Shown in pieces: positions 7,448-51,515 of a DNA stretch of 64,000 nt. Within the stretch, counting starts at the first letter, position 1, and the number at the start of each line of letters is the position of its first letter. The stretch is from Platerodrilus igneus (lineage: Eukaryota; Arthropoda; Insecta; Coleoptera; Lycidae): assembly GCA_036346225.1 (NCBI GenBank), contig JARFIW010001104.1, positions 8,210,001 to 8,274,000 of the forward strand. Reading direction: 5' to 3'. The position numbers were made by a program, and so were the translations under genes. Below the pieces are notes generated by a model, which saw nothing but the letters and a program-made list of their open reading frames with translations, did not search any database and was not told the origin of the DNA.

Positions 7448-9761
7448 CCCTAGAATACTGGACATTCGTAAAATTTACGAATGTCAATTTATTTCGGTGC
7501 CTTTCGGATATTTCCGATATACATTCATGTTTGATACGTCCAGTACCTTCCTCTTCAGTGTCATAGTAAGCATTAGTGAGTTCAGGTGTGAAAAATTTGT
7601 TCCCGATCTTATATATTCTGCACAGCCGTCGTAAGAATTACGAAAGTCCCGTATTTCCGTTATAATTAATGATTTTGTGTTTTTTTATGAATTGTTATAT
7701 TTGAGTACTGTTTTGACTTGCTGTAAGTATGGTATTGCACATTTTGATAACTTTAGTATAAAATAAATATTCCTTAGAAAAATGGCATCTAAAAAACAAC
7801 TGTCTGATGAAGAATTGGTAGCTATTGTTCAAAGGATTATGAATGGAGAAGAAAGTGTTCCTGAACCTTTCGAGGATAGCGGTAGTGACTGGGAAGAAGA
7901 CAACGTTGAAGTCGAAGTGCCTGATTCCAGTGAAAATAGCGATAGTGAATATAATCCGGAAATAACACAAAATACAGAAGATTTACATGAAGTAGGTGGT
8001 AGTGAAGATTCACAAATCCCTGAGCATACTGATAACTGTGCATCATATAGTAATAATAGTATTCATTTACCTGCTATTTCACGAAATACTAACTATATTA
8101 TCCGTCTGAATAAAAGACGATTGAAAGGAAAAAACGGTTATAAGTGGTCAACCGTAATACCTAAAATGTCCAAAAGAACGGGTGCTCGAAATATTATTCA
8201 TTTTATGGCTGGCACCAAGGGTGAAGCTACAAAGTATAATGTAATTGATGAATACTTTCTTCATTTTTTTTTCTGAGAACATTATAGAAACTATTCTTCA
8301 ATATACAAATGATGAAATAACCAAACAAGCTGAAAATACACAACAGGGCATGCAACGATGAACTTATGGCTTTGTTTGCAGTACTAATACTTGCAGCTGC
8401 TAAAAAAGACAATCATTTATCTTCAAGGAACTTTCTATAAAGCGTGTATGAGTTGTGAGCGTTTTAATTTTTTGATAAATTGTCTTAGATTTGACGAAAA
8501 AGAAACACGGGAAGAGAGAAAGATAAATGATCCTTTTGCACATATACGTGAAATATGGGATATTTTTATAGAGACATGTAGGACCTCCTATACACCATCA
8601 TCTTATCTAACTATAGATGAACAACTATTAGGATTTCGCGAGCGATGTCCATTTCGTATGTACATGCCAAACAAGCCTAATAAATGCGGCATAAAGACTG
8701 TAATGATGTGTGATTCTTCATCAAAGTATATGATAGATGCCAGTCCATATTTGGGAAAGAAAACACCAAATAATGGCCTACCCCTGGGAACGTATTATGT
8801 AACAGAACTATCAAAATCGGTATATGGCACTAACAGAAACCTCACCATAGATAACTGGTTTACCTCCATAGGACTTGCAGATGAGTTACTAAAAGATCCA
8901 TACAAGTTAACTCTAATTGGAACATTGCGTAAAAATAAAAAAGAGATTCCCAGAGAAATGTTAGAGGTAAAGAATAGAAATCCAAATTCGTCACTTTTTT
9001 GTTTCGATAAAAAGAAAACTCTAGTTTCCTATATGCCTAAAAAAAACAAAATCGTTTTACTACTTTCGACAATGCACGGAGCAGAAGTTTCAAGAGAGAA
9101 TGGTAAATCATCAATCATTTTGAATTACAACGAAACAAAGAGGGGGAGTAGATACTTTCGACCAAATGGGTTCGAATATGAGTTGTAGCAGAAAAACGCG
9201 AAGGTGGCCACTATGTATTTTCTTTGGAATGATGAGTATGGCTAGCATCAATTCTTATGTTTTATATACCTACAACAATTTAAAAGCCCAAAGAAAACCC
9301 CTCTCTCGGTATCAATATATGACCGAACTGAGTAACCTATTAGCAAGGCCATGGATGGAGAAACGTTTAAATATAAAAACTTTACGCCGTGAACTTCGTT
9401 TGGATATATGTAAAATTTTAAATATAACTCTAGAAAAAGATAGTACTGTTCCCCAACGAAAGAAAAGAAAGATTTGTTTTACTGCCCAAGTCAAAAACGC
9501 TCGAATGACCACTACATATTGCCAACAATGCAGGAGGCTATTTGTGGAGAACATCGCGCAGTATTTGCTCACAGTGCTCTACTGAATGTTAAAACTGTTC
9601 TTTTAAGTCAAATAATAAACAAATGTGTATAGAATATTTCATTATTTTGATAATTTATTTTTGAACAAATTTTTGTTTCATTTTACCCAATTTACTTGAA
9701 GTAGTAAATAATACTATAGTCCAGTAATGACGTATATTTAAAGTAATCCAGTATTCTAGGA
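7448..9761 (+). mobile_element. piggyBac-family transposon, both ends present
   Basis: The left end is TTAA (7444-7447) followed by CCCTAGAATACTGGA. The right end is TCCAGTATTCTAGG plus one changed base, followed by TTAA (9762-9765). The TTAA duplication and CCCTAG terminus are diagnostic of piggyBac. At 2,314 bp it is close to the usual size of about 2.4 kb. A palindromic block (ACATTCGTAAAATTTACGA) lies just inside the left end. The element sits in an intron of the host gene in the gene's orientation. Confidence 0.92.
7782..9585 (+). pseudogene. piggyBac transposase, frameshifted
   Basis: ATG at 7782 starts an acidic N-terminal region of about 160 residues. The frame breaks near 8260-8410 (at least two shifts). 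It then resumes as the DDE_Tnp_1_7 catalytic domain in 8391-9145, with TIDEQLLGFRERCP (first Asp) near 8614 and LTIDNWF (second Asp) near 8842. Another frameshift near 9146 separates YNETKRG from the VDTFDQM block carrying the third Asp. A basic C-terminal region follows, with a partial cysteine-rich finger (CQQC near 9520) disrupted by a further shift. All three catalytic Asp codons survive, but the protein cannot be made in one piece. Confidence 0.88.
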
Positions 9762-12106: not shown

Positions 12107-13342
12107 TTAACATATAATATGATTTGTTAATCTTTTGCATCGATTATCTATGTCTGCTTGCCAGTTCAATTTAGCATCTATGTAACTTCCCAAGAATAAT
12201 ACTTTTTCACATATTTCAACCTTTGATTTATTCAGCCTAATATCGATGGTGCCTAGGTGTCTTATTTTATAAAAGTAAACACATTTTGTTTTAGTTATAT
12301 TAATAACTAATCTATTTCTTGCACACCACTGCCAAAATTGTTCTATCACAATGTTTACTTTGGCCTGAAGCTCTTCTGGAGATTTAGCTTCAACCACCAT
12401 TGTGGTGTCATCTGCATAAAGTATTACTTTAGCTTTGGTTATGTATTTCGGAAGGTCATTGATAAACACACTGAAAAGCAGGGGCCCCAGAACAGATCCC
12501 TGCGGTACACCTAATTCGCACACATGTTCTATTGATGTGGCATTGTTGATTTTGGTTTTTATTTTTCGTTGCTGCATGAATGATATTAGCCAGTCACATA
12601 TTTTACCTCTAATGCCAACATTAAATAATTTAGGTTCCATGAGGTTAGGATTAACACAATCAAATGCACGTGTGAGATCAAAGAAAAGACCTATAACATA
12701 CTTGCCTTCATCTTGTTGTTTGAGTACATAATTTAGAAATTCACATGCAGCTGTTTCTGAAGAACGACCTGGTCGAAAACCATGCTGCTCATCCGCCAAC
12801 TGATTATACTTCATTAGAAAATTCATTATTCTTTTTGCAATTAATTTTTCAAAATGATAGAAAACTGAGAGTATGCAGACTGGTCTATAATTTTCAACGC
12901 ATTTTAGATCACCTTTTTTAGGAACTGGCACTATTAAACCGGTTTTCAATGCATCAGGATACCGCCCAGTTTTCATAGAGTAATTTAGTAGAAATGTTAA
13001 TATAACAGAAAAATGCTTTATTGTCTTCTTTATAAATGATTTTGGAATTTCGTCCACACCTGCTGAATTTTTATTATTCAAATTAACTATTGTATCTAAT
13101 AATTCTTGCTCGGTTACATCTGTGAAATACATACTGTTCATTATTATTTTCGGCGCTATACATTTACTACAACTAGTGTCTTGCAGACTATTGCTTACGA
13201 TATTATTAGCAACATTACTAAAGTATTCACAGAACGCATTTGAGATGTCATATTCATTATTTAAGACCTTTTCATTGTATTTTATTCGAGTTACTGCAAT
13301 TTTATTGTTCATTTTCCAGTGATTTGATGAACTATTTGCCAC
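12107..13342 (-). pseudogene. Jockey-like ORF2, reverse transcriptase
   Basis: This is 411 open codons of reverse transcriptase. Visible motifs in order are VPVPKKGDLKCVENYRPV, FDLTRAFDCVN (motif A Asp), GVPQGSVLGPLLFSVFINDL (motif B) and LYADDTTMV (motif C, YADD). Target-primed reverse transcription of the element RNA is the family role. The frame overlaps the endonuclease/linker frame (13309-13968) in another phase, so ORF2 is frameshifted there. The catalytic residues are intact. Confidence 0.85.
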
Positions 13343-14475
13343 ATCTGTTTAGTGCTGTTTAAGGATGCTAATATTTTTCTTGAAAGTATTTTTTTTGCAT
13401 TGCAAATATTTTGACTGTGTTGTTTTTGTACTTTGTATTCAGCTATTAATCTGCCATCATTAGTGACTTTTACCATCTGATAAAGTGTTCTTAGATGTTC
13501 TGCTTGCTGAATAATACTCTGATTTAGCCATTCCTTATTAGATCTTCTGTAATTTGAGTTGTAACATTTTTTGGGACTTACTACTTCTACGCACCAATAG
13601 AAGGTGGCCCAAAATTTATTAAAGGCATCGTTTATGTCTGTTGCACCATAAACGTCATACCACCTCATTTTGGTTATTAGCTGTATAAAATTGTTAATGT
13701 GTTTATCTGTAAAGTGTCTTCGCAGTCGGATAGTCTTTTGTGATCCGTATTTTATTTTAGCCACTTGAATTGAGCATATTTGAGCAGAATGATCTGAATA
13801 GCCTGGATCAGTCACAATTATACTGCAATCGTTAGCATTTGTTAGCATATAATCAATCGCATTCTTACCTCTGGTTGGAGTATTAACATAGTTATTTAGA
13901 TCGTAGCTCAGAAGTATATCTTCCAACTCTCTTTTATTTAAAGAATCTTTTAAAAAGTTTATGTTCAAGTTACCACATTATTAAAATTTCAGATAATTGT
14001 GACACTATAGTTAGCACTTGATCAAACTGCTTTATAAAGTTTTTAAAATTACCATCCCCACTTCGGTATATTGTTACAATACACACCCTCACACAGTTGA
14101 AGTTACATTTAATTGCACAACACTCAAAGTCCTGTTCGGTAAAGTACTCAGATAAATCGACTACTTTTGTTTCTATTTTAGATTGTGCAAAGATTACCAC
14201 ACCACCATGTCTTTTAATAGTTCTGCAATAGACCGCTGCAATTTTATATCCATATATATTGATAGATGGTACTGCATCTTCATATATCCAAGTTTCTATG
14301 ATGCATAAGAATAATGGTTTTTGTTAATTGACAAACACATCTAGTAAATGAATTTTATTGGATATACATTGTATATTCAAATTTATCAGTTTAAGTGTAT
14401 TATAGATTATATTATCTTTAAGTGTTCCTACATTTGTTGCAGTTAGCAGTCTGTTGTCTGTTAGTTGTTGGTTTT
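13309..14475 (-). pseudogene. Jockey-like ORF2, endonuclease and linker, broken
   Basis: Three frames in succession (14324-14475, 13970-14200, 13309-13968) hold the APE-type endonuclease. The start block (LKLINLNIQCISNKIHLLDV) lies near 14400. A VRVCIVTIYR strand follows near 14100, and NTPTRGKNAIDYMLTN and GYSDHSAQIC (catalytic SDH) lie near 13870-13780. Then comes the linker to the reverse transcriptase. Frameshifts and stops separate the pieces. Confidence 0.75.
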
Positions 14476-14867
14476 CTCTTTTATATCTGCTTGGGCATGG
14501 AAAAACTGCAAATTGAATCTGCGAATTTTTATATTTTTCGGCCAAAATTCCACATTAACAATGTTTTCATAATAGTTAAAATCAAACCCCACTTGAAAAG
14601 CTTTTAGTTTTCCTATGGTTTTTAATTCTTTGCAGTCTACTGCAGTATTAGGATACTCCTCATGTACATATTCAATAATTGTGTCTGGTGTGGTTTCAGG
14701 TGAGCAGCCACCAACATAAATCCAGGGCTTTTTAATAGGAGCTTTGAGTTTTGCTTCTTTGATATTGGTTCCAATTAGTGTTTGTTTTTTGTTATTTGCT
14801 TTTTTCTCACTTTACTAAATCCCTCATTGCTATGTGTTTTATCTTCATTTATATTAACAAGTTGATT
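14476..14867 (-). pseudogene. Jockey-like ORF1, C-terminal part
   Basis: Minus-strand codons between about 14770 and 14530 give KKPWIYVGGCSPETTPD, KAFQVGFDF and NVEFWPKNIKIRRF. This pattern matches the RNA-binding C-terminus of ORF1 in several insect LINEs (W-x-Y-x-G and the FWP-x-x-x-x-x-RRF close). The upstream part runs to the insertion junction at about 14867, where ORF1 is 5' truncated. Confidence 0.6.
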
Positions 14868-15800
14868 TATTATGTGTCTTATATTCCGCACTATTCCCTC
14901 ATGTCTTAGTATGTGGCCTATCATCCTATCTCTCCTATTTTCTACTGTTTTCCACATAGTTCTTTCTTCCCCTACTATTTCTAGTACCTCTTTGTTCTTA
15001 ACTTTGTCTGTCCATGGTATGTTCATCATACGTCTGTAGCACCACAATTCAAAGGCTTCTACCTTTTTCTTGTCTGCTTCTCCTAATGTCCAGGCTTCAC
15101 AGCCATACAGTGCTGTGCTCCACACATATGTTTTAAGCATTCTTTTCCTTGTTTCTATGTTTGTGGTCTTTGAACACAGTAGTTGCTTTTTCTTGTTAAA
15201 TGTAGCACGACCTTGTGCTAATCTTTGTTTTATATCTTTTGTGCCTTTCCCATCTTGCGTTATTTGACTTCCTATGTAGCAGAAATCCTTAACCTCTTGT
15301 AAGTTCTCGTTACCTATTTGTTTTCTTGTTTTTGATTTATTATCCCCTCTTTTGCATACTAGAACTTTAGTTTTATTTTTGTTAATTTTCATACCTATCC
15401 ATTTCGAGTTTCAGGTTCTCTAGCTTACCTACTTGTTTAATACTTCTGACATTCCATGCTCCGATTCGCAGAATGTTCACGGATCTTTTTCTATTCTTTC
15501 GGATCACATCCCCGAAGTAGTCTCCTCTCGGAGATCCGAATGTGGGACTTATTTTACCTCTGCAATTTTTTATCCCAGAGGATGCCATCATGTTTAACAA
15601 TTTTTGTACGCAGCGTACTTGGGAGGTAATGTGGTAGTTTCCCGTTGCCTTCCACATCGCAGTAGTATGTCTTAGAATGTCATACCGACTTCTATGGTCT
15701 CTGCCACTCTAAGTACCGAAAAAGCTGCTGCCCTCTTTCGGGGACCTGTCTTAGTCCCGTTCCTCACTAAAGACCCCACTAATTTGGTTAAACCTATAGT
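14868..15800 (-). mobile_element. RTE-like LINE, 5' part with internal deletion
   Basis: Minus-strand 15657-15392 carries a leader and the start of the endonuclease (ILRIGAWNVRSIKQVGKL, cut after LEMDRYE). At about 15390 it jumps directly to the end of the reverse transcriptase (MKINKNKTKVLVCKRG, CYIGSQITQDGK, STALYGCEAWTL, WCYRRMMNIPWTD, RDRMIGHILRHEG). The rest of the endonuclease and the catalytic reverse transcriptase core are absent. The frame ends at the Jockey insertion at about 14868, and the missing C-terminus is at 11518-11388. The 5' boundary is not clear. Confidence 0.7.
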
Positions 15801-17218
15801 TCGGCTTTTTTGCTCATTGAAACGCGCAAGCCATTTTACCTGCTCTAGTAGTTTTGAACGTAGTCGAGGTGCAGATCCTTTCAGAATGGTTAAAATCTAT
15901 AAAGACTTCAAATGTTATTTGTTCAACAATATATGGCTTTCTAACTCGATTATGATTCCTTTGGAATCTTGCCAGGTTGAAAATATTCAACCAATCATGT
16001 ATCACCTATACAGGGGTGTTCTTTTTTTGCATCTCGATAGCACTGTGCATCGAGTCCACTTCCATGTATGAATGTCCACTTTCAAGAAATTTGTATTCAA
16101 TAACGTGAACATTGGTCATCTGAGTCAAATAAAGCATAGCGCAAACATATTGGTTGCGGTTTTGTCCGCTGCGTGTCTGAAAACAACGAAACCTCTTTTA
16201 CTTCTTGTGGTAGAGTGGTAAATCACTTATATAAACACGTTCCAATTTCACAACTGCCCCTTCTTCCATTATGTTCTGTTCGTGAATAACAGTATGCATT
16301 ATTTGGCAAACCAAATTCGTAGACTGCCAAGTTATACATATTAATTTTTCTGATGTAATATATCAAAGACACATCAGCGCAAGGTATCTGTAAAACAGAT
16401 TGCAGGTCAAAGGTTGCAGAACGTCTTCCCCCACCAACTGAGATTGACGTACTTCCGCTTGCGTTCGTGGGAAGATAACTTCTCATGTCAGAACCCTGTG
16501 TCAACGCTTACGACTGTAAAGATACACAACTGATGCCGAGATTGGGGGTCTCACAACATCAACGTGATTGCACTAATTAACGGAGATTTTTACAAACATT
16601 AAAATAAAGTCCTTAACTTCTAAATTAAATGAATCGAATTGCTAAAAGCTTTAAAATAAAACGCAACAAAGCAGTATGAAAAGCGAGTTTAAGTCCTTTG
16701 AGAAAGAATACGCACTTCAACAAATCAAGATATATATGACATTTTCAGAACAATTTATGTGTAACGCGCTGTCAAATACTGAACAAATTTTATTTTTATA
16801 AGTGTTTTTATCTTTACATATTATATTATTCCTTTTTATTTTTGTTAATAAGTTTATAAAGATTGTGTACAAACGTTTGTGTCACGTTTCACATGATTTA
16901 ATTTATAATTTTAAAAGAAATATATAATTTTGAAATGACGCCTGTCAAAATATTTTAATGGATTACATATTACGAATGATAAAGGAACATAATGTACATT
17001 TGAGTTTTGATATTGGCATATATGGATAGATATGAAATATTCGATATTAATGATTCTTAAAATTGGGATCTACCAACGAATATAGTTTATATATTAAGAA
17101 ATACCTGATCTACAACTGTGCTTCTCCTGGTACTAGTTCACACCCGATTGAGAATTATATATTTCACTGAAACATAACAAATTGCTTATTTTTCAAATAA
17201 AAATAAACCAACTATAGA
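15801..17218. other. Intron sequence with one TE-like fragment
   Basis: Apart from the fragment at 16223-16504 nothing is recognised. The part from about 16560 is very AT-rich and may include the 5' UTR of the element that starts coding at 17219. Confidence 0.4.
16223..16504 (-). pseudogene. Fragment of an unnamed TE-associated protein family
   Basis: The minus-strand frame of 93 codons contains YYIRKINMYNLAVYEFGLPN, CYSRTEHNGRRGSCEIGTCL and an upstream DLQSVLQIPCAD. I recall the pattern Y-N-L-x-x-Y, C/Y-x-W/R-x-E-x-x-G-x-R-G-S-x-E-I from insect proteins that look transposon-derived, but I cannot name the family. No complete domain or terminal repeat is visible. Confidence 0.35.
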
Positions 17219-17490
17219 ATGTTGAAGCAGTCAAGCGATAATAAAAAAATGCAATATAAAGTATTCAGAAGACGATTTTCAAACCCTACAGAGCTAACTA
17301 ATAATTCTCATAATCCCTCAAATGACTGGGTTATTTGCAATATTTGTGGTTACAACTCAGTTTCTAAACGCGGCTTAAAACAACATCACACCAAGTCACA
17401 CTGTTTAACAAAGAAAGATGATCATTCTATGTCAGAACCAAAATGTTTTATCAAACCACGAGACAGAAGAAATTTCGAGAAATGCTGTTG
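17219..17490 (+). pseudogene. LINE ORF start with C2H2 zinc finger
   Basis: ATG at 17219 begins about 90 codons with one clear C2H2 finger: CNICGYNSVSKRGLKQHHTK followed by SH, at roughly residues 40-61. Such fingers bind DNA in R2/NeSL-type LINEs and help choose the target. The frame stops at 17492. After shifts, an acidic stretch (CEVQELIELLSEAKQYL) and an IPKGAR block near 17570 link it to the reverse transcriptase. Confidence 0.65.
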
Positions 17491-17586
17491 TTAACACTGA
17501 AAATTGTGAAGTTCAAGAACTGATTGAATTACTATCCGAGGCTAAACAATATTTAAAATTTTCGTCTTATACCCAAAGGTGCTAGA

Positions 17587-19145
17587 GTGGCCATTAGTGA
17601 CGAATTGTCAAATCTACTCAGAAACACTACGGCTAGAAATGATTTGCATTCATGGTCAAGGCTACTACTTTTTACTATATGTGTTCTTCATATCCCACCT
17701 AGAAAGCTAAAGCAAGTTTCACTTGCAACACTTGTGAAACAAAACTTAGTCTACTTTCAAAAGAATGACATTGATACCATAAAACTATTCCTTAAAACAT
17801 CATGCAACAGTGCAGAAAAACTAGCTACAAGAACAATACCTTTAAAAGAAAACACAAATAAATTGTGTAAACAAGTGACACAAAAATTATCAGAAGGTGA
17901 CATTAGCGGTGCAGCTCGACTTCTGTGCTCAAATGATAAAGTTGCAAATAATTGTCCTGAAACATGGCTTGCCTTAGAATCCAAACATCCACCAATGGAT
18001 TACCAGACAAATTATCCATCCAGTCCTTCTGATGATTATTTATCTCAAAATTACCTACGTCTAACATCACACGAAATAGTAAAAAAGGCAATCAACAGCT
18101 TTCCTCGAAGTTCATCCGGTGGAATTGATGGTCTTAGACCACGACATCTTTTAGATCTGTTAGCAATTTCTAACAGTGCTGTTACAACAACCCTTTTAGA
18201 AGCACTTGCCAAATTTATCGACAATGTTTTAGATGGTAAATTACCAAAATCAGTTTTACCAATATTTTATGGTGCCTCATTAACCGCTTTAATTAAAAAA
18301 GATGGAGGAATACGTCCAAATGCATGTGGTAATACTTTACGACGAGTTGCAGCCAAAATCGCTTGCAACATAGTCCATGAGGTTTCAAGTGCAAAATTAA
18401 AACCAATTCAACTTGGTTTTGGTGTTAGAGGTGGCGCAGAAGCTGCTGTACATGCTACCCGCACTTTTCTTGAGATTAATACAGATGCCGAAGTGATTGT
18501 GAAGTTTGACTTTGCAAACGCATTTAACACATTACGACGAGATCACATGTTGTCCATAGTTCACCGCGAAATACCCAGTTTGTTTCCATTTATATGGCAA
18601 GCTTATAGAAATCAATCCAACTTAACATTTGGCAACAGGCTCATAAAATCTCAATGCGGTGTACAACAGGGTGACCCATTAGGACCTTTGTTGTTTAGTT
18701 TATCAATTATGGAACTTACACATTCTTTAATCTCCGATCTTAATGTGTGGTATCTCGATGATGGTACAATCGGCGGAAAAATAGATACAGTACTTCAAGA
18801 TATAATAAAAGTAATTGAATATTCCAAAATAAGCGGATTAAACTTGAACACTACCAAATGTGAAGTTTTAATCAATCAAAACAACAATACAACATCCACC
18901 CTTTCATCTATAAATGAATTGATTCCCGGAATTAAACAAGTTAAATCTTGCGATTTTGAGATTTTGGGTGCACCAGTGTTAACTTTGGCAGTTAAAAATG
19001 TCTTACTAAACAAAATATCTACCTGCAAACTTATGTGCAGTAGATTGCAAATTCTTGACACACATGCAGCTCTATATTTAATGAAAAACTGTTTAAGCGC
19101 TGGTCCTAAACTTACTTACATTCTCGTTGTTCACAGTTATACCAA
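17587..19145 (+). pseudogene. Reverse transcriptase of RLE-type LINE
   Basis: Over 500 open codons hold an N-terminal extension (DLHSWSRLLLFTICVLHIPP) and the RT palm. Motifs visible are SSSGGIDGLRPRHLLDL, KKDGGIRPNACGNTLRR, KFDFANAFNTLRRDHML (motif A Asp), GVQQGDPLGPLLFSLSI (motif B), VWYLDDGTIGG (motif C) and GLNLNTTKCE. The catalytic aspartates are intact. The YLDDGT-x-GG form differs from the YADD of Jockey/CR1 RTs and matches an abundant but poorly named RT family seen in cnidarians, oomycetes and arthropods. The frame is lost just before 19145 and the C-terminal part continues at 19149 in another phase. Confidence 0.88.
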
Positions 19146-19580
19146 CATATGGACCTATTAAAACCGTTTGATGACATATTTCGAAATTGCTTAGAGAATA
19201 TAACAAATATAATAATGGATGATATGGCATACAATCAAGCAACTCTACCATGCCATCTAGGTGGTCTTGGCATAAGAAAAATAACAGACTTGGCTTTACC
19301 TTGTTTTATAGCATCAATACACACTTCAACCAATCTTGTTTCAGACATTTTAAAAACGCCTAGTTTAACCTTAACCGGTTTGTCTGAAGCATTGATTTTA
19401 CTAAATAGACCCATACCAGACAAGGAAAATAAAAGTTTGTCATCACTAAGCTCGCAGAAATTTTGGGAATCGGATTCACTAGAAAGCAAGTACAACGATT
19501 TGATAAAAGCCAGCGACATTCGTTCCATTGCTCGCTTAAAAGCAGTATCACAAAGGAAAGCTACCAATGGTTACATGCAC
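19146..19580 (+). pseudogene. RT thumb/connection segment, frame-shifted
   Basis: This frame continues the same polypeptide (MDDMAYNQATLPCHLGGLGI, KAVSQRKATNGYMHSF). The PCHLGGLGIR block is the usual sequence after the RT core in this family. Frameshifts at about 19130 and 19578 flank it, so it appears only as a separate frame. Confidence 0.7.
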
Positions 19581-20985
19581 TCCTTCTTCTCAGCTTGGAA
19601 CAGTCCTACCGAGCGAAGCAATACGTATATGTGTGGCGTTACGCTTAGGTGCAAGAGTTTGTGAACCCTTTACTTGTTCTTGTGGTGTTTTCGTAGATTG
19701 TACAGCCTCTCATGGTTTAAGCTGTAACAAGAACACAATTGGTCGATTATCCAGACACGAATCGTTAAACCAAGTAATAGCACGATCTCTTGCTAAATTA
19801 CAAATTCAATCCGTTCTCGAACCCTTAGGTACTTTAAGAGATAATAAGAGACCTGATGGTGTAACAATAATACCATGGGAGAAAGGTCGGTCGTTGGCTT
19901 GGGACACAACTGTAGTAGACACCTTAGCTCCTTCACATTTAATTTCAACAAGTAAAACATGTGGAGCAGCTGTTGCTGAAGCTGAAAGATGTAAAATTAA
20001 TAAATATAGAGATATTGGCCAAAATTACACCTTTATTCCAATTGCTTTCGAGACTATGGGAGTCGCTGGTGAGTTAACTCGGCAACTAATAAACAACCTA
20101 GGTCATAGACTTAAAATAGCAACATGTGAACAAAGATCCACAATATTCCTTTGGCAGCGACTATCAATAGAAATTCAACTTGGTAATGCTGCTGCAATAC
20201 ATGGCATTTTACCACAATGCAATACATTTCGAATTTATAACAGGGAGAATCACCAAATGATCACAAAAGTTCCAAATATTACTTATCAAACCAATAAATC
20301 CATTTTAGAAGAAAATATACTCAAGGTTGTAAATATACAAAATAAAATACAAAAACCATTTTCACTTGATGAACAAGCAGAAAAAGATCAACAAACAGAT
20401 ATTGATGACAGTGGTAAATTAATAATGGGACGTTACATAAACACAATAATCGATGATCTCCATAAAGATGTAAAAGATCTAAAACCACTACAAGATGCCC
20501 CAATTGCAAACATAACGGACCATGACAAAGACAAACAGCCTAGTCCTGAAACGAAAGAACGGCAACCACCAACAAATAATAATTTAAGCCTTCGACCTAT
20601 AATAAAAAATAACTTCCCAAAAGCATGTGGATTAGTAAATTTGGGCAATACGTGTTTTTTCAATTCGATTTTACAATGTCTTGGACAAACACCATACTTA
20701 TTACAATTACTTCTTGAAACTTCAAAGCCAGGACAATATTTTAAACTTCCTGGCGGGAGGTTAAATCCCGATGATAAAGATTCATTGGTGTTAGGCCCAC
20801 TTAATGGGACTTTAGAAGAATGGCTACCATTAACACATATTTTATCACAAACGTTAAAAAAATTACAAAATGATAGACCAGAAATTTATAATCCAAGTAC
20901 GCTATTTTCAAGAGTCACAGAAAGAATACCACAGTTTTCTGATGGTCAACAACATGACTCACATGAACTATTACGACATTTATAA
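19567..20985 (+). pseudogene. Restriction-like endonuclease fused to USP N-terminal half
   Basis: This is one uninterrupted frame of 472 codons. First come a zinc-knuckle-like C-x-C...H...C segment (FTCSCGVFVDCTASHGLSC) and the restriction-like endonuclease (RPDGV near 19849, WDTTVVD at 19900-19920, then RQLINNLGHRL). Next is a roughly 130-codon polar linker (DHDKDKQPSPETKERQPP). Finally comes a ubiquitin-specific protease start: GLVNLGNTCFFNSILQCL with the catalytic Cys codon at 20653-20655, and DGQQHDSHELLRHL near 20943. The frame ends at TAA 20983-20985 where a Leu codon would be expected. The USP type is closest to USP16/USP45. Known USPs remove ubiquitin from substrates. Its role in this element is unknown; sparing element proteins from degradation or changing histone ubiquitination are possibilities only. 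Confidence 0.85.
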
Positions 20986-21876
20986 GAAATATTGAGTGAA
21001 AATGACTTAAAAAGGTATCAAACCGTAATTTTAGAAAAATTGAAGGTTTAGTTGTAAAATAGATCCATCATCTTGTGAAAGTGATAAAGAAAGAATTATA
21101 AAATTTTATGAAAGGCAGGCTTCTGAGTTACAACTACCAACTGAACAAATATTCAGAGGAGTCTTAGTCAGTACATTACAGTGCCAAGACTGTAAACATA
21201 TTTCACGTCAAGAAGAATTCTTTTTTGATCTAAGTTTGCCAATATCGAAAAGAGAAATTTTACAGCCTTTTAAAAACGATAAGGAAACCGATGATACATA
21301 TGCAGATGAATATTCCATACAATCCTGCTTAAGCCAATTCACAGACTCTGATCTGCTTTTTGGAAATAATAAAGTAAGTTGCAATTTTTGCAAAAAAAAA
21401 CATGGTGAAACTAAAAAAGGATTTATTTATACAAACGCAACTAAACAACTTCTAATATGTAGTCCTCCTGCTATATTGATTTTACATTTAAAACGATTTC
21501 GGGTTTTAAGACTCCGATCTGCAAAGGTGAATAAATATGTTTCGTTTCCCCTGTTACTGGATTTAACGCCATTTTGTTCAATTGATAATCAAACTAAAGT
21601 GTTATATGCATTATATGGTGTTGTGCAACATAGCGGTTCAATTCACAAAGGACATTATGACGCATATTAAAAATAAGAACTGCTTTAGACAACAACAGTT
21701 ACTGTTGGCAATTTCTATTTCAATATCAAAATGGCGTATTGCCTTTATCTTGCGAAAATAGCAAAGCCAATGCTGAAATTCTGCCAGGAAAGTGGTATTA
21801 TGTTAACGACTCTTATGTTTTAGAAGTACCCGAAAAAAGGGTACAAGCATATTTGCTATTTTATGAACGAATTTGA
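20986..21876 (+). pseudogene. USP16/45-type protease, C-terminal half
   Basis: After the stop at 20983 and a frameshift near 21040, the protease resumes. It has a zinc-ribbon pair (TLQCQDCKHIS near 21180, KVSCNFCKKKHGE near 21376), an EEFFFDLSLPI block and ILILHLKRFRVLRLRSAKVN. The His box is HSGSIHKGHYDAY with the catalytic His codon at 21653-21655. One more frameshift at 21667 is followed by GKWYYVNDSYV and a terminal AYLLFYERI ending at TGA 21874-21876. Cys-to-His spacing is about 333 codons, as in compact USP domains. No introns are present, unlike typical host USP genes. Confidence 0.82.
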
Positions 21877-23778
21877 AACTGTAATTCTATTTAATGAACT
21901 CATTTAATCATATCTATTATAGGTACACTAGATTCAAATTATAACACTAATAAAAATCTTCACTGGCAAAAAAATGATATAATCACAAACAATTTGCCAC
22001 ATTAGATAGGTTCGTGTATGGCAACTAATGCCAAGGTCCTAGGTTTGACTCCTGACATGGATTGCTTGAAAAATGTTAGGTGAGCATTTTTCACAAAAAT
22101 ATGTCCTTGTTCGAATTAGAATGTGGGTCTCACGTGTTATCTTGCACGTTAAAGATCTCTCCTTGCTTGGAATAACAAGGGTTTGCCAACAAAATCTCTC
22201 GTTAAAAAAACTCTTCTTGACTAATGTAGTACCTTCTGGTGAATCATTGGAAAAATCAAAATATAGGATCACCAAGACAAAGAATCGCATATGGCAGAGC
22301 TGAAGAATGACCTTCTGTCATTTCTGCATATGAAACTTTTACAGTGGCATGCGGGTTTAGCGATCAAGAGAATTTGGTGAGACTGCAGAATTACACTAAA
22401 AGTGTACAGCAAGAGATTATATTGAAATTTTGATGCATAACTCCACTTGTGGACCTAATATTTTATTGCTCAATTCGTTCAATTAATGCAGAGCTATTAG
22501 ATAAAATATGCCAAGCATCCTCTCCCAGAGAAGACAAACCAGAGATGTTATTATGATATGCACCGTCAGTACAAAATTTATGGGCTGTACTTGGACAGAA
22601 TATATAAATGACTGTGACTACCACGTACATATATGGTAGTTGGTTGAATCAGTTGTTGGATAGGATATGTTTTATAAACCCAGCAATTAGTTTAATTTCT
22701 AGAACTAATATAAATGGTATCAACAAATCAAGTCTTGGAAAACATCTGACAGCTTCGAAAAGAAACGCTTGCATTAATTACACGTAACTATGAAAACAAC
22801 ACCTGAAAGCAAATGCTTTGCTTGCTCTTAATCTTGCAAAACACTTACGAGATTGCCCACGATTTATCAAAATGGAATTGAAAGAAAAATTAAATCTTTT
22901 GAACCTCAATGGTATCTGTAAAAAATGTCTGAAGAAACATTATATCAAATTTCCTAAATGATGAGCATAAGGTGCAAGATATATGATAAATAATTGTTAG
23001 AGCATAAGTTCAAATAAATTTAGTTGCACGCATTTTTCTCCTATGGGAAGTCTATATTCTCATCTTAAAACTGTTTCTTTTCACCCATAATTTACAACCT
23101 GCCCTTACTTTTCGTTTATATTACTACATTTTGACATTTTTAATTAACTACTTGTGGATAATTAAAATAAATCTTTCGCGTCGGGTCTAACCAGGGTCAT
23201 TTCTTTTTCTTTAAAATCCTCTCACGTGAAATACGTATGACTAGGTGCTTAATTTTTCTTTATGTAACTAGGTTAATATATTGTAATATTACATTTTCTG
23301 ATGATGTTTGCTTTGTAATCTAGTATCTGTGGATTTCACTAAATCAACTTTTTCTTTGTATTTAACCACATTGTAAAAACTTTATTTCGATCTTAGAATG
23401 TAACATTGTAAGCTATAGTTGTAATTGTTTCGGTGTATTATTAAATTGAATTATTTCTAATGATTGATGTACAAATGTTTTCTTAATTTTGTGAGAAATG
23501 CATAACATTGAAATATGTTTTCCCTGTTTGTGGTTTTAAAATACTATAAACCAGAGTTCCATCCTAATATGTATTTTACTATAAATAACTTTCTGGTTTT
23601 GTGGTTTGAATTTATTGCATGACGCCCTATGTTCTATACCTATTTAACATTCTTGTTTTTACATATCTATTACATTGTATGACTTATGAATTCTTTTATT
23701 TCAGCGGTTTTTATTGTTGCGATGTTTGTCCTATTCAATGACTAATGCATTATCTTAGTATTGTATTAAACTATACCA
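21877..23778. other. Intron sequence; weak SINE-like and gag-like traces
   Basis: Mostly AT-rich with no clear gene. A tRNA-like B-box trace (GGTTTGACTCC at about 22051) with a small stem (TGGCA...TGCCA) may mark a SINE remnant. The gag-like fragment is listed separately. From about 22990 to 23778 I see nothing, though its end may be the 5' UTR of the next LINE. Confidence 0.3.
22740..22960 (+). pseudogene. BEL/Pao-like gag zinc-knuckle remnant
   Basis: Plus-strand codons around 22840-22940 read HLRDCPRFIKMELKEKLNLL and GICKKCLKKH. The arrangement H-x-x-x-x-C-x-x-F...K-E-K...L-C-x-x-C-L resembles the knuckle region of BEL/Pao gag proteins. The frame is short and broken on both sides, so this is a tentative call. 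Confidence 0.35.
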
Positions 23779-23820
23779 ATGTCTTGCTTTAATTTATTAC
23801 CAATATATATTATTGAATGT

Positions 23821-24930
23821 ACAGGGAGATTGAAAATGTTGAGCTGTACTTTGTGTAAAGTAAGTAATAAAGTTTTTACCTGTGATAAATGTAAAAAGCT
23901 ATTTTGTGATGTATGCAGTAATATTACCTCTTCTGAAGTTCGATGCCTTGAACTCAAAAAGAGGGTGCTTCTATTCCACTGCAAAGAATGCTTGTCTAGT
24001 GTTAGTAATGATGACAATTACATACAAAACATTATCCAATTAAGCAATCAAGAAATATTGAAAAATCTCAGTACAATGTTTGAAAGTTTTAAAACTGAAT
24101 TCATGGAGATGGCTTCCAAAAAACTCACTACCCATCAACTTAATATGACCAATGAACCCATGAAAACGTATGCTAGCATAACTAAATCTGATCCAATACT
24201 TGTGGTAAAACCAGTAAACATTCAGCAAAGTAAGGATACTAAATCTGAAATTAAAGATGCAATCAACCCTGTTGAAATGGGGATTAATGTATCTAAAGTA
24301 TTTGAGGCATCAAAAGGCAAAGTTGTCATTGGGTGCAGAACTGAAATGGATCGTGATATGCTACAAAATAAGATTGCAGAAAAGTTAGGTAAAAGATATA
24401 ATGTAGAAGCCCTAATCTAAAAAACCAAAAGTACGAATAGTTAACGTTAAACATGACGATGTAGATGGAATGGATCACACTCAAATCCTAGAAAAATAAT
24501 CAAACAAAATAAAATACATTCTGAAGAAAACAGCTTCCATATTAAAGTTTTAAAAGTAATTGAAAATAAAAAGATGAGAAAGTCAACAATCATTTTGGAA
24601 GCTGATCGAAAAACACATAACCATCTAATAAATATGAAAACAGCTGCAATTGGTTGGTCAATGGGTATCATATACAATCATATCAACGTAACTCAGTGCT
24701 TCAATTGCCTCAAGTTCAATCATCATGCTCAGGATTGTAAGTCGGAAATAACATGTTCGTTGTGTGCTGGAAAACACAACTATAAAAACTGCAGCTCTGA
24801 TGTTAACAAATGCTCAAACTGTACATATGCAAAGGAAAAGTTGAACATGGATATTGATAACAGGCATCCTGCTGTACACAAAGAATGTCCCTGTTATATA
24901 CAAGCATACAAAGAGAAGCTGCAAAGATAG
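23821..24930 (+). pseudogene. LINE ORF1, PHD-like finger and CCHC knuckles
   Basis: From ATG near 23836 the protein begins LSCTLCKVSNKVFTCDKC and continues with KLFCDVCSNI and FHCKECL, a PHD/RING-like cysteine cluster in the first 60 residues. A central segment follows (MGINVSKVFEASKGKVVIGC). A stop at 24418-24420 and shifts near 24420 and 24500 break it. Frame 24574-24930 then holds CFNCLKFNHHAQDC, CSLCAGKHNYKNC and further cysteines, as in nucleic-acid-binding ORF1 proteins. Confidence 0.75.
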
Positions 24931-25016
24931 AATACTATACTCCTATATAGCAACTACATCAAAAAACTGTTTACAATATCTCACATGACCTAAAAAATCA
25001 GCAAATAATCCAGCCA

Positions 25017-27693
25017 TTGCGGTTATGTCTTATAAATATTCGTTCCATCAATTCCTGTTTCGATGATTTTGTATCTTTTATTTCATTAAATGATTGTGAT
25101 CTAATTGGGGTTGCAGAAACATGGCTCTCAAGTAACTTTCCATCTGCATTGATTAGCATTGCAGGTTACAATTTGATAAGAAATGATCGCCCAACTATAG
25201 GTGGGGATTATGCTGGTATATTGCCAGCAGTCTGGCGCATAAAATGTTGGATATAAATTATGTTGAACATCCTCAGTTAGAACAATTATGGATTAGCATT
25301 AAAACCAACAAACATAACATTGCAGCAGGACTTATTTATAGACCACCGAGTACATCATTGGAATGTTTAAATGATCTTGAACTGGTTCTTTCACATGTTT
25401 GTACAACATATGATGATATCATCCTTATTGGGGATGTAAATCTTGACTTCATTCAACATGACACAAGGTGTAAAAAATTAAGTTCACTGTTGAACATTTT
25501 CAATCTTACACAACATGTGAAGGATCCAACACGAATTACTGAAACTACATCAACATTAATCGATATAGTATGTGCCAGTCCTCAAATCAATATGATATCA
25601 TGTGAAACTATCGATCTCTATCACATGACTGATCACAGAGCAGTACTTTGTACATTTGATGTAAATGTACGCAAACATGAGCCATACTGCTTCACATACA
25701 GATGTTTTAAGAACTTTAATATGAATAACTTTAATTATGATGCTAGTCACATTCAATGGGATTTAATAAGATCATTACCAGACCTCAATGATAAAGTGAA
25801 TTATCTTAATAATGCAATAACATTATTATTTAATGAACATGCTCCAATACGTACAGCTTATATAAAAAAGAAAACGCCACCATATATAACGCCCACCATC
25901 AGACTGATGATACGTCTACGGCATTTGGAATATAGCAAGTATATTAAGACTAAGAACAATACTAAGCTTCGCTTTTATAAAGACCTAAAACATTATCACA
26001 ACAGCAGTAAGGAATGAAAAAAAAGCATATCTTGAATATCAATGCAGGAATAATATTAACAATCCTAAGCAGCTATGGAATATTTTTGATAGATGTCAAA
26101 TACATTCAAAAACGAAAACCCAAATTTCAAATGAAATTCAAAATCCTGATGAAGTCAACGAATTTTTTATTGAATCCATCCCAGATCGATCAATACCAAG
26201 TCATCAAATGAACTTTTACAATCAAAACATTCACAAAGCTATAAATGGGCCATTCATTCTACAACCAGTAAATGTAAATGTGGTAGAGAAATCGATCATG
26301 AAGATCAGGTCTAATGCTCAAGGATTTGATGGCATTAATAAGAAAATACTAGTGTTGGTAATGCCATTCATTATTAATGTTTTAACGCATATTATAAATG
26401 TATCACTAGAATCAGGCAAATTCCCTATAGCTTGGAAATATTCGACTATCACTCCAATTGCTAAAAAACCTCTGGCTACTACATATGCTGATTTACGCCC
26501 AATTAGTATATTGCCTATAATGTCAAAGGTTATGGAACACATAGTTTACACACAACTAATTGAACACATATCCAAATGGAACTTGTTACCCACATTCCAA
26601 TCTGGATTTGCACTGGCTATAGCACAGCAACTGCACTAAGTAAGGTTGTTAATGATCTTACATGCTCAATTGATGCATCAAATATTGTTTATCTATTATT
26701 TCTAGACTTCAGTAAGGCGTTTGACTTAATCAATCATAACCTGCTTGTTGCTAAGCTTCGTTTCTATGGGTGCGATAATATTGCAACAGAATGGTTTAAA
26801 GACTATTTGAGTAACAGACAGCAATCAGTTAAACTACATGGACAACAGTCCCAGTTCTGCTGTGTTTCACGAGGTGTTCCACAGGGTAGTATCTTGGGCC
26901 CTCTACTCTTTGCTATTTTTACGTCAGATTTTCCAGAAATACTATCACCAGAATGCAAATATCATATGTATGCAGATGATATCCTACTTTATGTTTCTAG
27001 TAATGTTTCACTTGTCGATGATGCAATAGTAAAACTGAATGAAAATCTTGTTGTAGTGGATAAATGGGTACACGACAATGGTCTTATCCTTAATGCTAAC
27101 AAAACACTTGCATTACTCGTTGGTTCACAGGTAAACCATGTTAAATCTGAAGTGCAAAGATCTCTAGATATCAAAATAAACAATAAGGTAGTGACATTTG
27201 CTGACTGTGTTAAATATTTAGGCCTTTCTCTCGACAAGCATCTTACGTTTGAAAAACATATCAACAAAAGAATAGGTTTGTGTTATAGTAAAATGCGGAC
27301 CCTTTACAGATACAAATTTCTGTTAAGCTCAAACATTAAATGGAACTTATGTAATAGTGTTGTGTTGTGTCATATAGATTACTGTAGTGTAGTTTACTAT
27401 AAATTTTGGCAGGCTACTTAAGGCAAAGAATACAAGTACTTCAGAATGTATGTTTTAGATATTCATATAATATTGAGCGTAAGCAACATATAACACCATA
27501 CTATAATTCTAAGAGTATACTTAAATATGATAAACGTGCAGAACTCCTTTTCGCTGTGTACATATATGCTATATTAACCAAATGTAGACCAAACTACCTG
27601 TTAGAAGCTATACAAATCAGAGCTACTCAGCATAGTATTAACCTACGAAATACAAATGATTTCAGTATTCCAACACTCAACAAAGAAATTTGA
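25017..27693 (+). pseudogene. LINE ORF2, endonuclease and reverse transcriptase
   Basis: The endonuclease starts with LCLINIRSINSCFDDF and VAETWL (25017-25256) and continues after a shift in 25244-26017 with GLIYRPPS, IGDVNLDF, KDPTRITET and MTDHRAVLCTF. The reverse transcriptase occupies 26208-27421 in two overlapping frames. Motifs are SNAQGFDGINKKIL, LFLDFSKAFDLINHNLL (motif A), GVPQGSILGPLLFAIF (motif B), MYADDILLYV (motif C) and VKYLGLSLDKHL. The C-terminal block is in 27406-27693. At least four frameshifts interrupt it; catalytic residues appear intact. Confidence 0.85.
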
Positions 27694-34728: not shown

Positions 34729-35146
34729 TAATTGTTTAGATGATGTTATATTAATACTACTGAAGCTTGGCCCTTGTTAATGATTTTCAATTACGTCTTG
34801 CATTTAAGGAAATTGAATCTAGTTATATACATAATTCATGTACTAATAACTTGATCATCCCATTTTGCAACGTTGAATAATACAAACATGTAATTATATT
34901 ATTATTAATAGAGAAGAGTAATCCACATTTGGAATGCAAATGAATGCTTAATATATATTAATAGTTATTAAGATGAAATGAAAACCCAACTTTGTATTTA
35001 AAGTTGATTAATGGGATGATCAAGTTATTAGTACATGAATTATGTATATAACTAGATTCAATTTCCTTAAATGCAAGACGTAATTGAAAATCATTAACAA
35101 GGGCCAAGCTTCAGTAGTATTAAGTATAACATCATCTAAACAATTA

Positions 35147-35220
35147 GGCTAGATAGCTCAATTGGTTAGAGCACTGATCCGGAGAATCAGAGGTTGCAGG
35201 TTCAAATCCTGCTGTAGCCG
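35147..35220 (+). tRNA. tRNA-like gene copy 2
   Basis: A full cloverleaf folds: 7-bp acceptor with one G-G mismatch, A box TAGCTCAATTGG, anticodon stem CTGAT/ATCAG with loop CCGGAGA, B box GGTTCAAATCC, discriminator G. Positions 34-36 would read GGA (Ser codon TCC), but the usual U33 is C and there is no long serine-type variable arm. Identity is therefore uncertain. Both Pol III promoter boxes are intact. No CCA is encoded, as expected in eukaryotes. Confidence 0.72.
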
Positions 35221-35546
35221 TTCTTTTAGTGGTTTTCAATTACTAGTTCGATTTGAAATGGTAATTCAACTTTAAATACAAAGTTGGGTTTTCATTTCAT
35301 CTTAATAACTATTAATATATATTAAGCATTCATTTGCATTCCAAATGTGGATTACTCTTCTCTATTAATAATAATATAATTACATGTTTGTATTATTCGA
35401 ACGTTGCAAAATGGGATGATCAAGTTATTAGTACATGAATTATGTATATAACTAGATTCAATTTCCTTAAATGCAAGACGTAATTGAAAATCATTAACAA
35501 GGGCCAAGCTTCAGTAGTATTAAGTATAACATCATCTAAACAATTA

Positions 35547-35620
35547 GGCTAGATAGCTCAATTGGTTAGAGCACTGATCCGGAGAATCAGAGGTTGCAGG
35601 TTCAAATCCTGCTGTAGCCG
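35547..35620 (+). tRNA. tRNA-like gene copy 3
   Basis: The sequence is the same as copy 2 over the whole cloverleaf, including loop CCGGAGA and both internal promoter boxes. It lies exactly 400 bp downstream of copy 2. Confidence 0.72.
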
Positions 35621-35948
35621 TTCTTTTAGTGGTTTTCAATTACTAGTTCGATTTGAAATGGTAATTCAACTTTAAATACAAAGTTGGGTTTTCATTTCAT
35701 CTTAATAACTATTAATATATATTAAGCATTCATTTGCGTTCCAAATGTGGATTACTCTTCTCTATTAATAATAATATAATTACATGTTTGTATTATTCCG
35801 AACGTTGCAAAAATGGGATGATCAAGTTATTAGTACATGAATTATGTATATAACTAGATTCAATTTCCTTAAATGCAAGACGTAATTGAAAATCATTAAC
35901 AAGGGCCAAGCTTCAGTAGTATTAAGTATAACATCATCTAAACAATTA

Positions 35949-36022
35949 GGCTAGATAGCTCAATTGGTTACAGCACTGATCCGGAGAATCAGAGGTTGCA
36001 GGTTCAAATCTTGCTGTAGCCG
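35949..36022 (+). tRNA. tRNA-like gene copy 4, mutated
   Basis: Same as copies 2 and 3 except for a G-to-C change at the start of the 3' D-stem strand (TTACAGC) and a C-to-T change in the T stem (AATCTTGC). These weaken the D and T stems. Spacing to copy 3 is 402 bp. Confidence 0.6.
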
Positions 36023-36111
36023 TTCTTTTAGTGGTTTTCAATTACTAGTTCGATTTGAAATGGTAATTCAACTTTAAATACAAAGTTGGGTTTTCATTTC
36101 ATCTTAATAAC

Positions 36112-36117
<6 letters not shown>

Positions 36118-36167
<50 letters not shown>
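36118..36167. repeat. (TA)n closing the tRNA-like array
   Basis: About 25 TA units directly follow the truncated last unit. Confidence 0.95.
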
Positions 36168-50442: not shown

Positions 50443-51515
50443 TCAGGGATCTCGAGTCGAATCTTGACTTGAAGAAGAATGAATTTGATTTGGCAAAAGA
50501 CACAACTTAGTTATTGGCCTTATGTAGTCGCCAGTTTTTGTATGAATTTTGACAGCACGAACTTTTCCATCGCAGCCAGGAATTGTCTCTAAGACACGGG
50601 CGAGAACCCATTGAAGAGCAGTGTCATCTTCTTTGACTAACACTAGGTCATTTTTCTTTAAGTTTTCTTTTTCTTCAAACCATTTTGATTTATTTTGCAA
50701 ACGATTAAGATACTCAACAGACCAACGTTTCCAAAAGATTTGCTGAATCTGTGATATTTTTTGATAAAGTGAAAGTCTATTTTCAGAAATATTTGAGACA
50801 TCTTTTTCTGGATAAGAAGTTAATGCAGAACCAATTTAAAATGGCCAGGGGTTAAACAGCTCAAATCAGAAGCATCATTAGATAAGGGACTTAGAGGTCT
50901 AGAGTTCATTATAGCCTCTATTTGGCATAATATTGTTAGAAATTCTTCATAAGTGAAACTTTGGTTACCTATGATTCTTTTCATATGGTATTTCGCACTT
51001 TTTATGGCGGATTCCCATATACCACCCCAATGAGGGGATTTTGGAGGGATAAATTTCCATGAGGTTTCATTTTGAGAAAGAAAATTAGAAATAATCAGAG
51101 AGTTATTTTTATTTTTGAAAAAATCATAAAGATCTTTGAGTTCGTTTTTTGCACCTAAGAAATTTGTAGCGTGATCGCTATAGATTGTTGGCGACGGATT
51201 TCCACGTCGCGAAATAAATCTTTTTGATGTAGATAAAAGGGATTCAGTAGATAGACTTGTAACTACTTCGATGTGTGCAGCTATTGTAGCCATACAAACG
51301 AATATTGCTATATAGGCTTTTATTTTGGGAGCTTTACGCAGCCGAGAAGATTTTAATAGAAAGGGGCCACCGAAGTCGACACCCGATTTATGAAAGGGCC
51401 TTGCAACATTGACTTTGTCTTGAGGGAGGTCTGCCATTATTTGTTTAGAATACTGATTGCTAAATCTGAAACAAGTAATACAATTTCGAATTAACCTTGA
51501 AACTGGTTTTTATTT
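50443..51515 (-). pseudogene. BEL/Pao pol, integrase part
   Basis: Minus-strand 51437-50820 holds the integrase core: GVDFGGPFLL (first Asp), IYSDHATNFLGA (second Asp), SPHWGGIWESAIKSAK (Glu) and MNSRPLSPLS. A frameshift near 50830 interrupts LTPGHF. Frame 50700-50443 then contains the DUF5641-type C-terminus (LVLVKEDDTALQWVLARVLE, RPITKLCLLP). Upstream, a zinc-finger remnant (NCITCFRF) is cut at about 51515. Gag, protease, RT and RNase H are missing, so only the 3' third of the element remains. Confidence 0.85.

Follow-up and report, generated by a model that had tools for sequence, protein, structure and literature searches.

The 64,000-nucleotide stretch of the Platerodrilus igneus genome analysed here (the window) contains a dead copy of a LINE family of the restriction-like endonuclease (RLE) type, whose polyprotein runs in the order zinc finger, reverse transcriptase (RT), RLE, linker and ubiquitin-specific protease (USP). 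This anatomy, jointly with the status of the locus as a mobile element, is virtually certain, and we put at about 85% the full explanation, in which an RLE LINE family captured a host USP16/45 protease that would serve the element in cis.

All features of the copy lie on the forward strand. The whole element, with broken frames, occupies 16761..21895, limits set by alignment with the copies L022, L023, L024, L025 and L030, and its 5' start is common to L022, L023 and the window. A 5' untranslated region (16761..17218), alignable with L022 and L023 over the sequence preceding the ATG, leads into the ORF start and N-terminal piece (17219..17494), beginning with the same residues as the intact copy L022 and holding a C2H2-like zinc finger at about 17336-17401 (zf-C2H2, E 0.041, below the Pfam cut-off). 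The reverse transcriptase piece (17557..19161) is of non-LTR type, with RVT_1 at about 18295-18891 (PF00078, E 1.3e-18), and is followed by a frame-shifted piece (19110..19664) that appears in the frame listing and matches the continuous frame of L022. A single stop-to-stop open frame (19540..20985) then carries the RLE, the linker and the N-terminal half of the USP, with a UCH match (PF00443) at E 1.9e-15. Its RLE (19570..20244) is recognizable in translation by RPDG near 19849, WDTTVVD and the end motif LSIEIQLGNAAAIHG; motifs of the CCHC and PD..D type were identified by eye and, together with a modelled relative, P0265, indicate the C-terminal RLE of the R2-like group. In that model an R2-like RT-RLE is joined by a low-confidence linker to a USP fold, and alignments to seven R2 chains span 750-787 columns. 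A further relative, P0122, has a sequence match to R2 in the PDB, and another, P0221, bears the depositor's name SLACS.

Between RLE and USP lies a polar linker of 375 nt and 31% GC (20245..20619). The USP N half (20620..20985), assigned by PF00443 and alignment to beetle USP16/45, has the catalytic Cys box NLGNTCFFN and is terminated by an in-frame stop; its middle part continues in another frame (21044..21670; PF00443, E 6.5e-23) with CxxC pairs and the His box KGHYDAY, and after a further frame shift translation and alignment place the C-terminus, with NDS, the host-like end AYLLFYERI and a stop, at 21670..21876. The start of a 3' untranslated region common to other copies follows (21877..21895). 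The first-pass annotation, which had read one open frame of RLE motifs, polar linker and C19 USP, continued past a stop and shifted to a His box and a terminal LLFYERI, is thus borne out, as is its USP16/45-like identification: USP16 is the best solved-structure relative of the piece 21044-21667 in a PDB search, and the UCH core nests among USP16/45 proteins. A Pfam search of the window pieces and L022 found no Peptidase_C48 or N-terminal Ulp1-like protease.

The RLE-linker-USP junction recurs in seven further copies in the same 2.7-Gb genome (L022, L023, L024, L025, L030, L055 and L056), all taken, like the other loci numbered L009-L056, from a UCH-score ranking, from which 18 were picked for type and frame length, and L055 and L056 for span. 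Multiple copies with one RT-RLE-linker-USP order, which had been proposed as a check, are therefore at hand: RT lies upstream of the junction in five of the eight (window, L022, L023, L024 and L030), L056 having been read at the junction only. L022 retains an unbroken frame of 1560 aa from stop to stop with the complete domain order (RVT_1 at 365-562, UCH at 1142-1557). Six compared copies are 97.3-98.6% identical in DNA, and homology among copies extends 10-57 nt past the USP stop. Because homology ceases just behind that stop while several copies (L024, L025, L030 and L055) are 5' truncated, the LINE-USP fusion is mobilized as a unit. The copies keep their 3' ends, which vary by tens of nucleotides, and lose 5' sequence, the pattern of target-primed insertion. 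L022 has a 12-bp direct repeat at its 5' end and about 18 nt beyond the 3' homology; around the window copy no clear target-site duplication was found, only one 13-bp match touching neither end (12-bp control counts 0-10) and, in a second comparison, matches of at most 8 bp. A search of genome contigs gave eight distant loci at 27-33% identity, and a search of viral contigs for element copies gave none.

These copies bear on two rival accounts. The USP part lacks introns, is truncated at its 5' end and stops close to the C-terminus of the host protein, and the window taken alone is compatible with insertion of a 5'-truncated processed USP16/45 pseudogene into or next to an ordinary LINE copy. 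The identical junction in seven further copies, the continuous frame of L022, the 5' truncations and homology extending beyond the USP stop reduce the probability of such a chance neighbour to practically nil; a lone processed pseudogene was rejected likewise, the junction being common to the seven further copies and shared with the neighbouring element. It is also very improbable that the copies are segmental duplicates of a domesticated host gene formed from LINE and USP, for although several have long stop-free frames, the eight lie on eight contigs and differ in 5' truncation point and in the flank behind the USP, as LINE insertions do. The frame itself also argues against chance. Among the 120 relatives listed, the RLE end motif was located in 104, in which the protein ends a median of 19 aa after it, whereas the window frame stays open past the motif through the linker; a linker as open as observed arose in 5 of 20,000 base shuffles, and the remaining five linker frames contain 13, 15, 6, 5 and 5 stops. 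A host-derived linker was rejected: against the host ZnF-USP linker there was no detectable homology (3.0 bits, with shuffles reaching 10.3), and a gapless-looking alignment was set aside for that reason.

The predicted protease derives by capture from a USP16/45 gene of the host, judging by its phylogenetic position. In a tree of 38 of the 120 host proteins (Periplaneta, P0035, was dropped as the box pattern was absent) the LINE USP groups with fireflies inside beetle USP16/45 with support 99/92, in agreement with the captured host deubiquitinase suggested in the first-pass annotation. Its end branch is 1.16, compared with 0.06-0.22 in the six nearest relatives, and this length makes its exact placement unsure. 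In its catalytic core L022 shares 53-68% identity with the beetle USP16/45 (C19) proteins shown, and the alignment retains the catalytic Cys, His and Asp; the LINE protease differs from the host enzyme in its fusion to RT-RLE and in lacking the ZnF-UBP and an insert of about 200 aa. The Pfam search of window pieces and L022 likewise found no ZnF-UBP, so this USP16/45 trait is missing; PF02148 is listed for 116 of the 120 USP16/45-type host matches. Capture probably occurred by a template jump through which the 3' portion of a spliced USP16/45 mRNA of the host was joined to the LINE 3' end or, alternatively, by co-transcription of a LINE with an adjoining retrocopy.

Variants shared among copies suggest purifying selection on the USP. 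In the window family shared variants give a USP pN/pS of 0.30 (9N:8S, P 0.014) and in a second, USP2-like family, with L009 left out as the same place as L017, 0.11 (3N:7S, P 0.001), values that come from small counts with several segments tested and from copies drawn from the UCH-score-ranked list, which favours well-kept USPs. The RLE row of the window family was not used owing to a misaligned L055 flank. Singleton variants in the USP revealed no significant constraint (P 0.21), and the case that selection keeps the USP coding would seem to be partly made. In the USP2 family the PDI-like tail, at a shared pN/pS of 0.80 (P 0.48), appears unconstrained, and captured pieces can thus be mere passengers.

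The fusion is one of several, and the first-pass annotation, in naming USP16/45, understated the extent to which related LINEs carry USPs of various types. At least 143 UCH matches were counted in the genome; of 20 UCH loci sampled (ranks 9-69 of 143), 18 have an RLE upstream in the same orientation. At least two more USP-LINE families are present, one USP2-like with a bromodomain and the PDI-like tail, the other with a USP7 that extends beyond the catalytic core. Elsewhere 15 proteins combine RT and UCH, with the UCH C-terminal in all 15; their types are USP35-, USP2-, USP8- and USP30-like and, tentatively, USP16/45-like (P0163, with 66 aa of USP present), P0252 being loosely called USP8 (191 bits, against 187 for USP15). 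Two are without type: P0251 has a weak PDB match and P0265 received no assignment at 1e-15 in the PDB sequence search. Gene-model merging was rejected as the source of such proteins: they are single frames, most of the contigs concerned are a few kb long, some of the proteins comprise several member sequences, and unbroken fusion frames exist in the DNA of this genome. NCBI gene models that join RT to a kinase (P0242), glycosyl transferase (P0161), dynein (P0260) or endonuclease/exonuclease (P0266) were not counted as captures.

Mapped onto the RT tree, USP type requires 12 changes among carriers, within the range of 200 shuffles (10-14, mean 12.7); the type does not follow the tree, which implies that the slot has been repeatedly refilled. 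(Every second plain LINE of the 120 relatives was left out of the RT trees, and the long branches P0250 and P0267 were dropped from the second.) One pair 81% alike in RT-RLE has USPs 33% alike (20/61 residues), compared with 62% (151/242) in a same-type pair that is also 81% alike, and P0125, the closest RT relative, is without a USP. Among the best 32 relatives, 26 are not NCBI gene models; of these, 14 have a long C-terminal extension, which contains UCH in every case, 10 stop 16-45 aa beyond the RLE motif, and in 2 the motif was not located. Different predicted USPs thus occupy the same C-terminal place in related LINEs. It is about an even bet that this RLE LINE clade forms a C-terminal docking slot for host deubiquitinases, with a changing occupant (USP16/45, USP2, USP7, USP8, USP30, USP35 and the two without type) where others have N-terminal OTU or Ulp1, in an arms race against ubiquitin-based restriction that would have left some hundred or more host-derived USP copies in one genome.

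As to what the USP does, the role we regard as most likely, at a probability close to one half, is that of a cis-acting deubiquitinase protecting the element protein, the activity being predicted from sequence. Tethered by the flexible linker to the RT-RLE protein, the USP would work as a general deubiquitinase, removing ubiquitin placed by host ligases on the element protein or on chromatin at the work site and so prolonging the life of the RNP. If the LINE supplies the targeting, many USP catalytic domains would suffice, which would explain the variety of types found in one slot. USP16 acts on H2A, and it is possible, if somewhat unlikely, that the USP instead removes ubiquitin from histones where the element inserts and so aids target-primed reverse transcription; the PHD domains of many relatives, SAP or RFX in some and the added bromodomain of the USP2 family fit such a role, but USP30- and USP8-type enzymes have extranuclear functions in the host, and the property common to all is ubiquitin removal. 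That the USP merely spreads with the LINE, bringing it no benefit, is distinctly unlikely: the tail of the USP2 family indicates that passengers exist, and P0152, with a C-terminal extension lacking any known domain, is a counter-case to UCH-only extensions that weakens their count, yet all 14 long extensions counted above carry UCH, the type has changed repeatedly, the catalytic residues are kept and shared pN/pS is low.

In known systems, the RLE LINEs NeSL and Utopia encode an Ulp1-like cysteine protease (PMC4640811, as excerpted), and so resemble the present family in an RLE-type LINE protein bearing a protease for ubiquitin-like proteins; theirs is Ulp1-like and N-terminal (in nematode families for NeSL), whereas here it is a host-derived C19 USP at the C-terminus, varying in type among elements. 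Ginger1 transposons carry a C-terminal OTU or Ulp1, and a T. vaginalis transposase_11 with Peptidase C19 is cited in the same source (PMC2836005); these too are mobile-element proteins ending in a ubiquitin-pathway protease, C19 in one DNA transposase case, but they belong to DNA transposons with an integrase-like transposase rather than LINEs, and the excerpted text describes no swapping among many USP types. Insect LINEs have also acquired SF1 RNA helicase domains (PMC6338049), a foreign accessory domain fused to the LINE protein as here; there the helicase is viral, the clades are TRAS and Jockey, and the excerpt describes no deubiquitinase. Mammalian L1 proteins are restricted by ubiquitination and ubiquitin ligases, according to the excerpts of two reports (PMC10716122, PMC5570191). 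Our literature search found published LINEs that encode Ulp1 and published transposases that encode OTU or Ulp1 and, in agreement with the first-pass annotation, which knew of none, no LINE with a USP, nor a LINE-encoded deubiquitinase of the USP kind as an answer to ubiquitin ligases.

The RT-RLE-USP protein makes the question of ubiquitin-based restriction testable in one polypeptide, by mutating a single cysteine. The repeated change of USP shows that LINEs are able to acquire host coding modules at the 3' end and to exchange them for others, which may serve as a route to exon-like shuffling and to large expansions of host enzyme domains, of which the UCH matches of this genome are an instance. 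For genome annotation, LINE-borne USP copies would be expected to inflate USP gene counts.

The restriction-like endonuclease (RLE) of the window element runs into the N-terminal half of a ubiquitin-specific protease (USP) within a single open frame (19540-20985, + strand; translation and domain search), and the remaining USP follows after 20985 to 21876 on the same strand in two further frames, with a host-like C-terminus. The reverse transcriptase (RT) was placed at 17557-19161 by domain search, and an N-terminal C2H2-like finger is a Pfam match below the cut-off. USP16 is the top solved-structure match for the main USP piece. Frames in this copy are broken in the LINE and USP parts alike. 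By eye, the window outside the element is mostly other transposable elements, with a piggyBac-like transposase, two jockey/CR1-like LINEs and Pao- and gypsy-like LTR pieces recognized from frames (7767-9585, 12107-15410, 23770-27421, 50820-54451 and 59303-63631); a 400-bp unit is also tandemly arrayed at 35010-36124 (2.8 copies, 99% matches).

The fusion is multicopy. A search of the 2.714-Gb assembly with PF00443 (the USP catalytic domain, UCH) gave at least 143 UCH matches out of 3561 candidates, about 80 of these 143 being free of internal stops by table count. Among 18 stretches read, picked by us for type and frame length, an RLE precedes the USP in the same orientation in 16, and none was found upstream in two, L026 and L029. 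Five of the 18 (L022-L025 and L030) belong to the window family, with USPs 93.3-94.5% identical to that of the window, and two additional copies (L055 and L056) were identified afterwards. The RT is seen 5′ of the junction in L022, L023, L024 and L030. In L022 a single frame of 1560 aa runs from stop to stop and contains both RVT_1 (365-562) and UCH (1142-1557). Pairwise identity among six copies is 97.3-98.6%, and the USP is free of in-frame stops and private frame-breaking indels in six of eight copies, being broken in L030 and the window.

L022, L023 and the window copy have a common 5′ end, and L024, L030, L025 and L055 begin further in. Homology extends past the USP stop by about 10 nt in L025, 12-19 nt in the window, 36 nt in L022/L023 and 57 nt in L024/L030; since the flanks diverge after these differing lengths, the 3′ ends differ by some tens of nt. 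L022 has a 12-bp direct repeat at its 5′ end and about 18 nt beyond its 3′ homology, and the same end comparison found no clear direct repeat round the window copy. The differing 5′ starts, the homology past the USP stop and the L022 repeat are marks of target-primed insertion of the fused RNA.

Other USP types occupy the same position. In a further sample of 20 loci (every third rank, ranks 9-69 of the UCH-scored list) an RLE is found no more than 1.5 kb 5′ of the USP, in the same orientation, in 18, and counting all loci examined together with this sample it is upstream in 27 of 33. L018 presents the order RT-UCH-bromodomain in a 1573-aa frame, and L017 the order RLE-UCH-bromodomain-thioredoxin domains in one frame, the thioredoxin part being labelled PDI-like by us; among the types compared, their USPs are nearest the USP2-like set. 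The host-like domains behind the USP of this USP2-type LINE (L017:4721-8101, L018:2165-6883), with the PDI-like array in L017 and others, possibly record a series of captures. In L021, UCH and USP7-specific C-terminal domains lie behind the RLE, though in a different frame, with a MATH piece below the cut-off; L020 and L033 resemble it (tblastn), and L033 has the RLE end and USP within one 778-aa frame. L026, on contig C1290, has USP and zf-UBP in one frame and is probably an ordinary gene. A second UCH match lies 12 kb from it, which perhaps indicates a host gene expansion there; matches of similar span occur on contigs C674 and C631.

Outside this genome, the best 120 of 3813 matches to the window linker plus USP all contain UCH, the top ones being beetle USP16/45 proteins, and an RT domain was found in none of these 120. 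The RT-RLE query returned three RT+UCH proteins among the best 120 of 983 matches, and a length-restricted search 14 among 85. In all 15 RT+UCH proteins combined the UCH is C-terminal to the RT and the Cys box is present. The His-box pattern was detected by script in eight; GHY also occurs in P0251 and P0262, missed by the pattern, and P0163, P0214, P0255, P0258 and P0261 stop short of this box. Top PDB chains are USP35 (P0148), USP8 (P0262), USP30 (P0259), USP2 (P0256) and, for P0252, USP8 with USP15 nearly tied; the match is weak for P0251 and none was found for P0265. The others were typed by similarity to PDB-typed proteins, P0163, with a short USP piece, being tentatively assigned to USP16/45. 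P0252, P0258 and P0259 carry close to the N-terminus a 2A-like D-x-E-x-(N/T)PGP, which we take to be a ribosome-skipping motif. An N-terminal OTU is found in three relatives above the cut-off and one below, and an N-terminal Ulp1 in one; the relatives that begin with OTU, Ulp1, SAP or RFX winged-helix domains are P0189, P0247, P0249, P0253, P0241, P0254 and P0244, the RFX winged helix of P0244 being below the cut-off, and many others carry PHD. An AlphaFold2 model of P0265 (mean pLDDT 75.8, pTM 0.58) is confident for RT-RLE, near 30 for linker 676-729 and mostly 70-90 for the USP except insert 966-1108; Foldseek retrieved R2 proteins first and USPs second.

A tree of 90 RT-RLE rows requires at least six changes in USP presence and 15 in USP type (5 and 13 in the first tree). 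When the carriers alone are considered there are 12 changes of type, and shuffling the labels 200 times gave 10-14 (mean 12.7); the observed value lies within this range, so that USP type does not follow RT descent. P0163 and P0214 are 81% identical over RT-RLE and 33% over the USP (20/61 residues); for P0255 and P0257, of the same USP type, the values are 81% and 62%. The USP is of host origin: that of the window nests within beetles, grouped with fireflies and two further sequences (99/92), Agrilus adjoining (98/93), although its end branch is 1.16 and the program warns that placement of so long a row is unsure. The host is taken to be a beetle on the strength of this nesting. The ZnF-UBP domain is missing from the window USP, as is an insert of about 200 aa that all eight aligned hosts have.

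Variants common to at least two copies were compared with neutral expectation. The window-family USP gave 9N:8S (pN/pS 0.30, P 0.014; 8 copies), or 8N:7S (P 0.022) with six copies; the USP2-family USP gave 3N:7S (pN/pS 0.11, P 0.001) and its PDI-like tail 9N:3S (pN/pS 0.80, P 0.48), each with 12 copies. Against selection on the USP, however, copies were drawn from the UCH-ranked list, several segments were tested, singleton USP variants showed no significant departure from neutral expectation (P 0.21) and RT+RLE was borderline (P 0.08; P 0.03 for RT alone).

Among the matches listed from an open-access library, no LINE with a USP was found. Published cases include Ulp1 on nematode NeSL and Utopia elements (PMC4640811), OTU or Ulp1 on Ginger1, and a T. 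vaginalis transposase bearing C19 (PMC2836005); PMC6338049, PMC6875170, PMC7650587 and PMC5678591 were also consulted. L1 ORF2p is reported to be ubiquitinated by TRIM41 (PMC10716122) and ORF1p to be acted on by TEX19.1 and UBR2 (PMC5570191). Together the data show the anatomy of the element, its multicopy state, the host origin of its USP and repeated changes in USP type. The main rival reading gives the USP a role at chromatin. A putative cis-acting deubiquitinase is the reading that best accounts for the recurrence, at a single position, of catalytic domains from several USPs, whether or not their neighbouring domains came with them.
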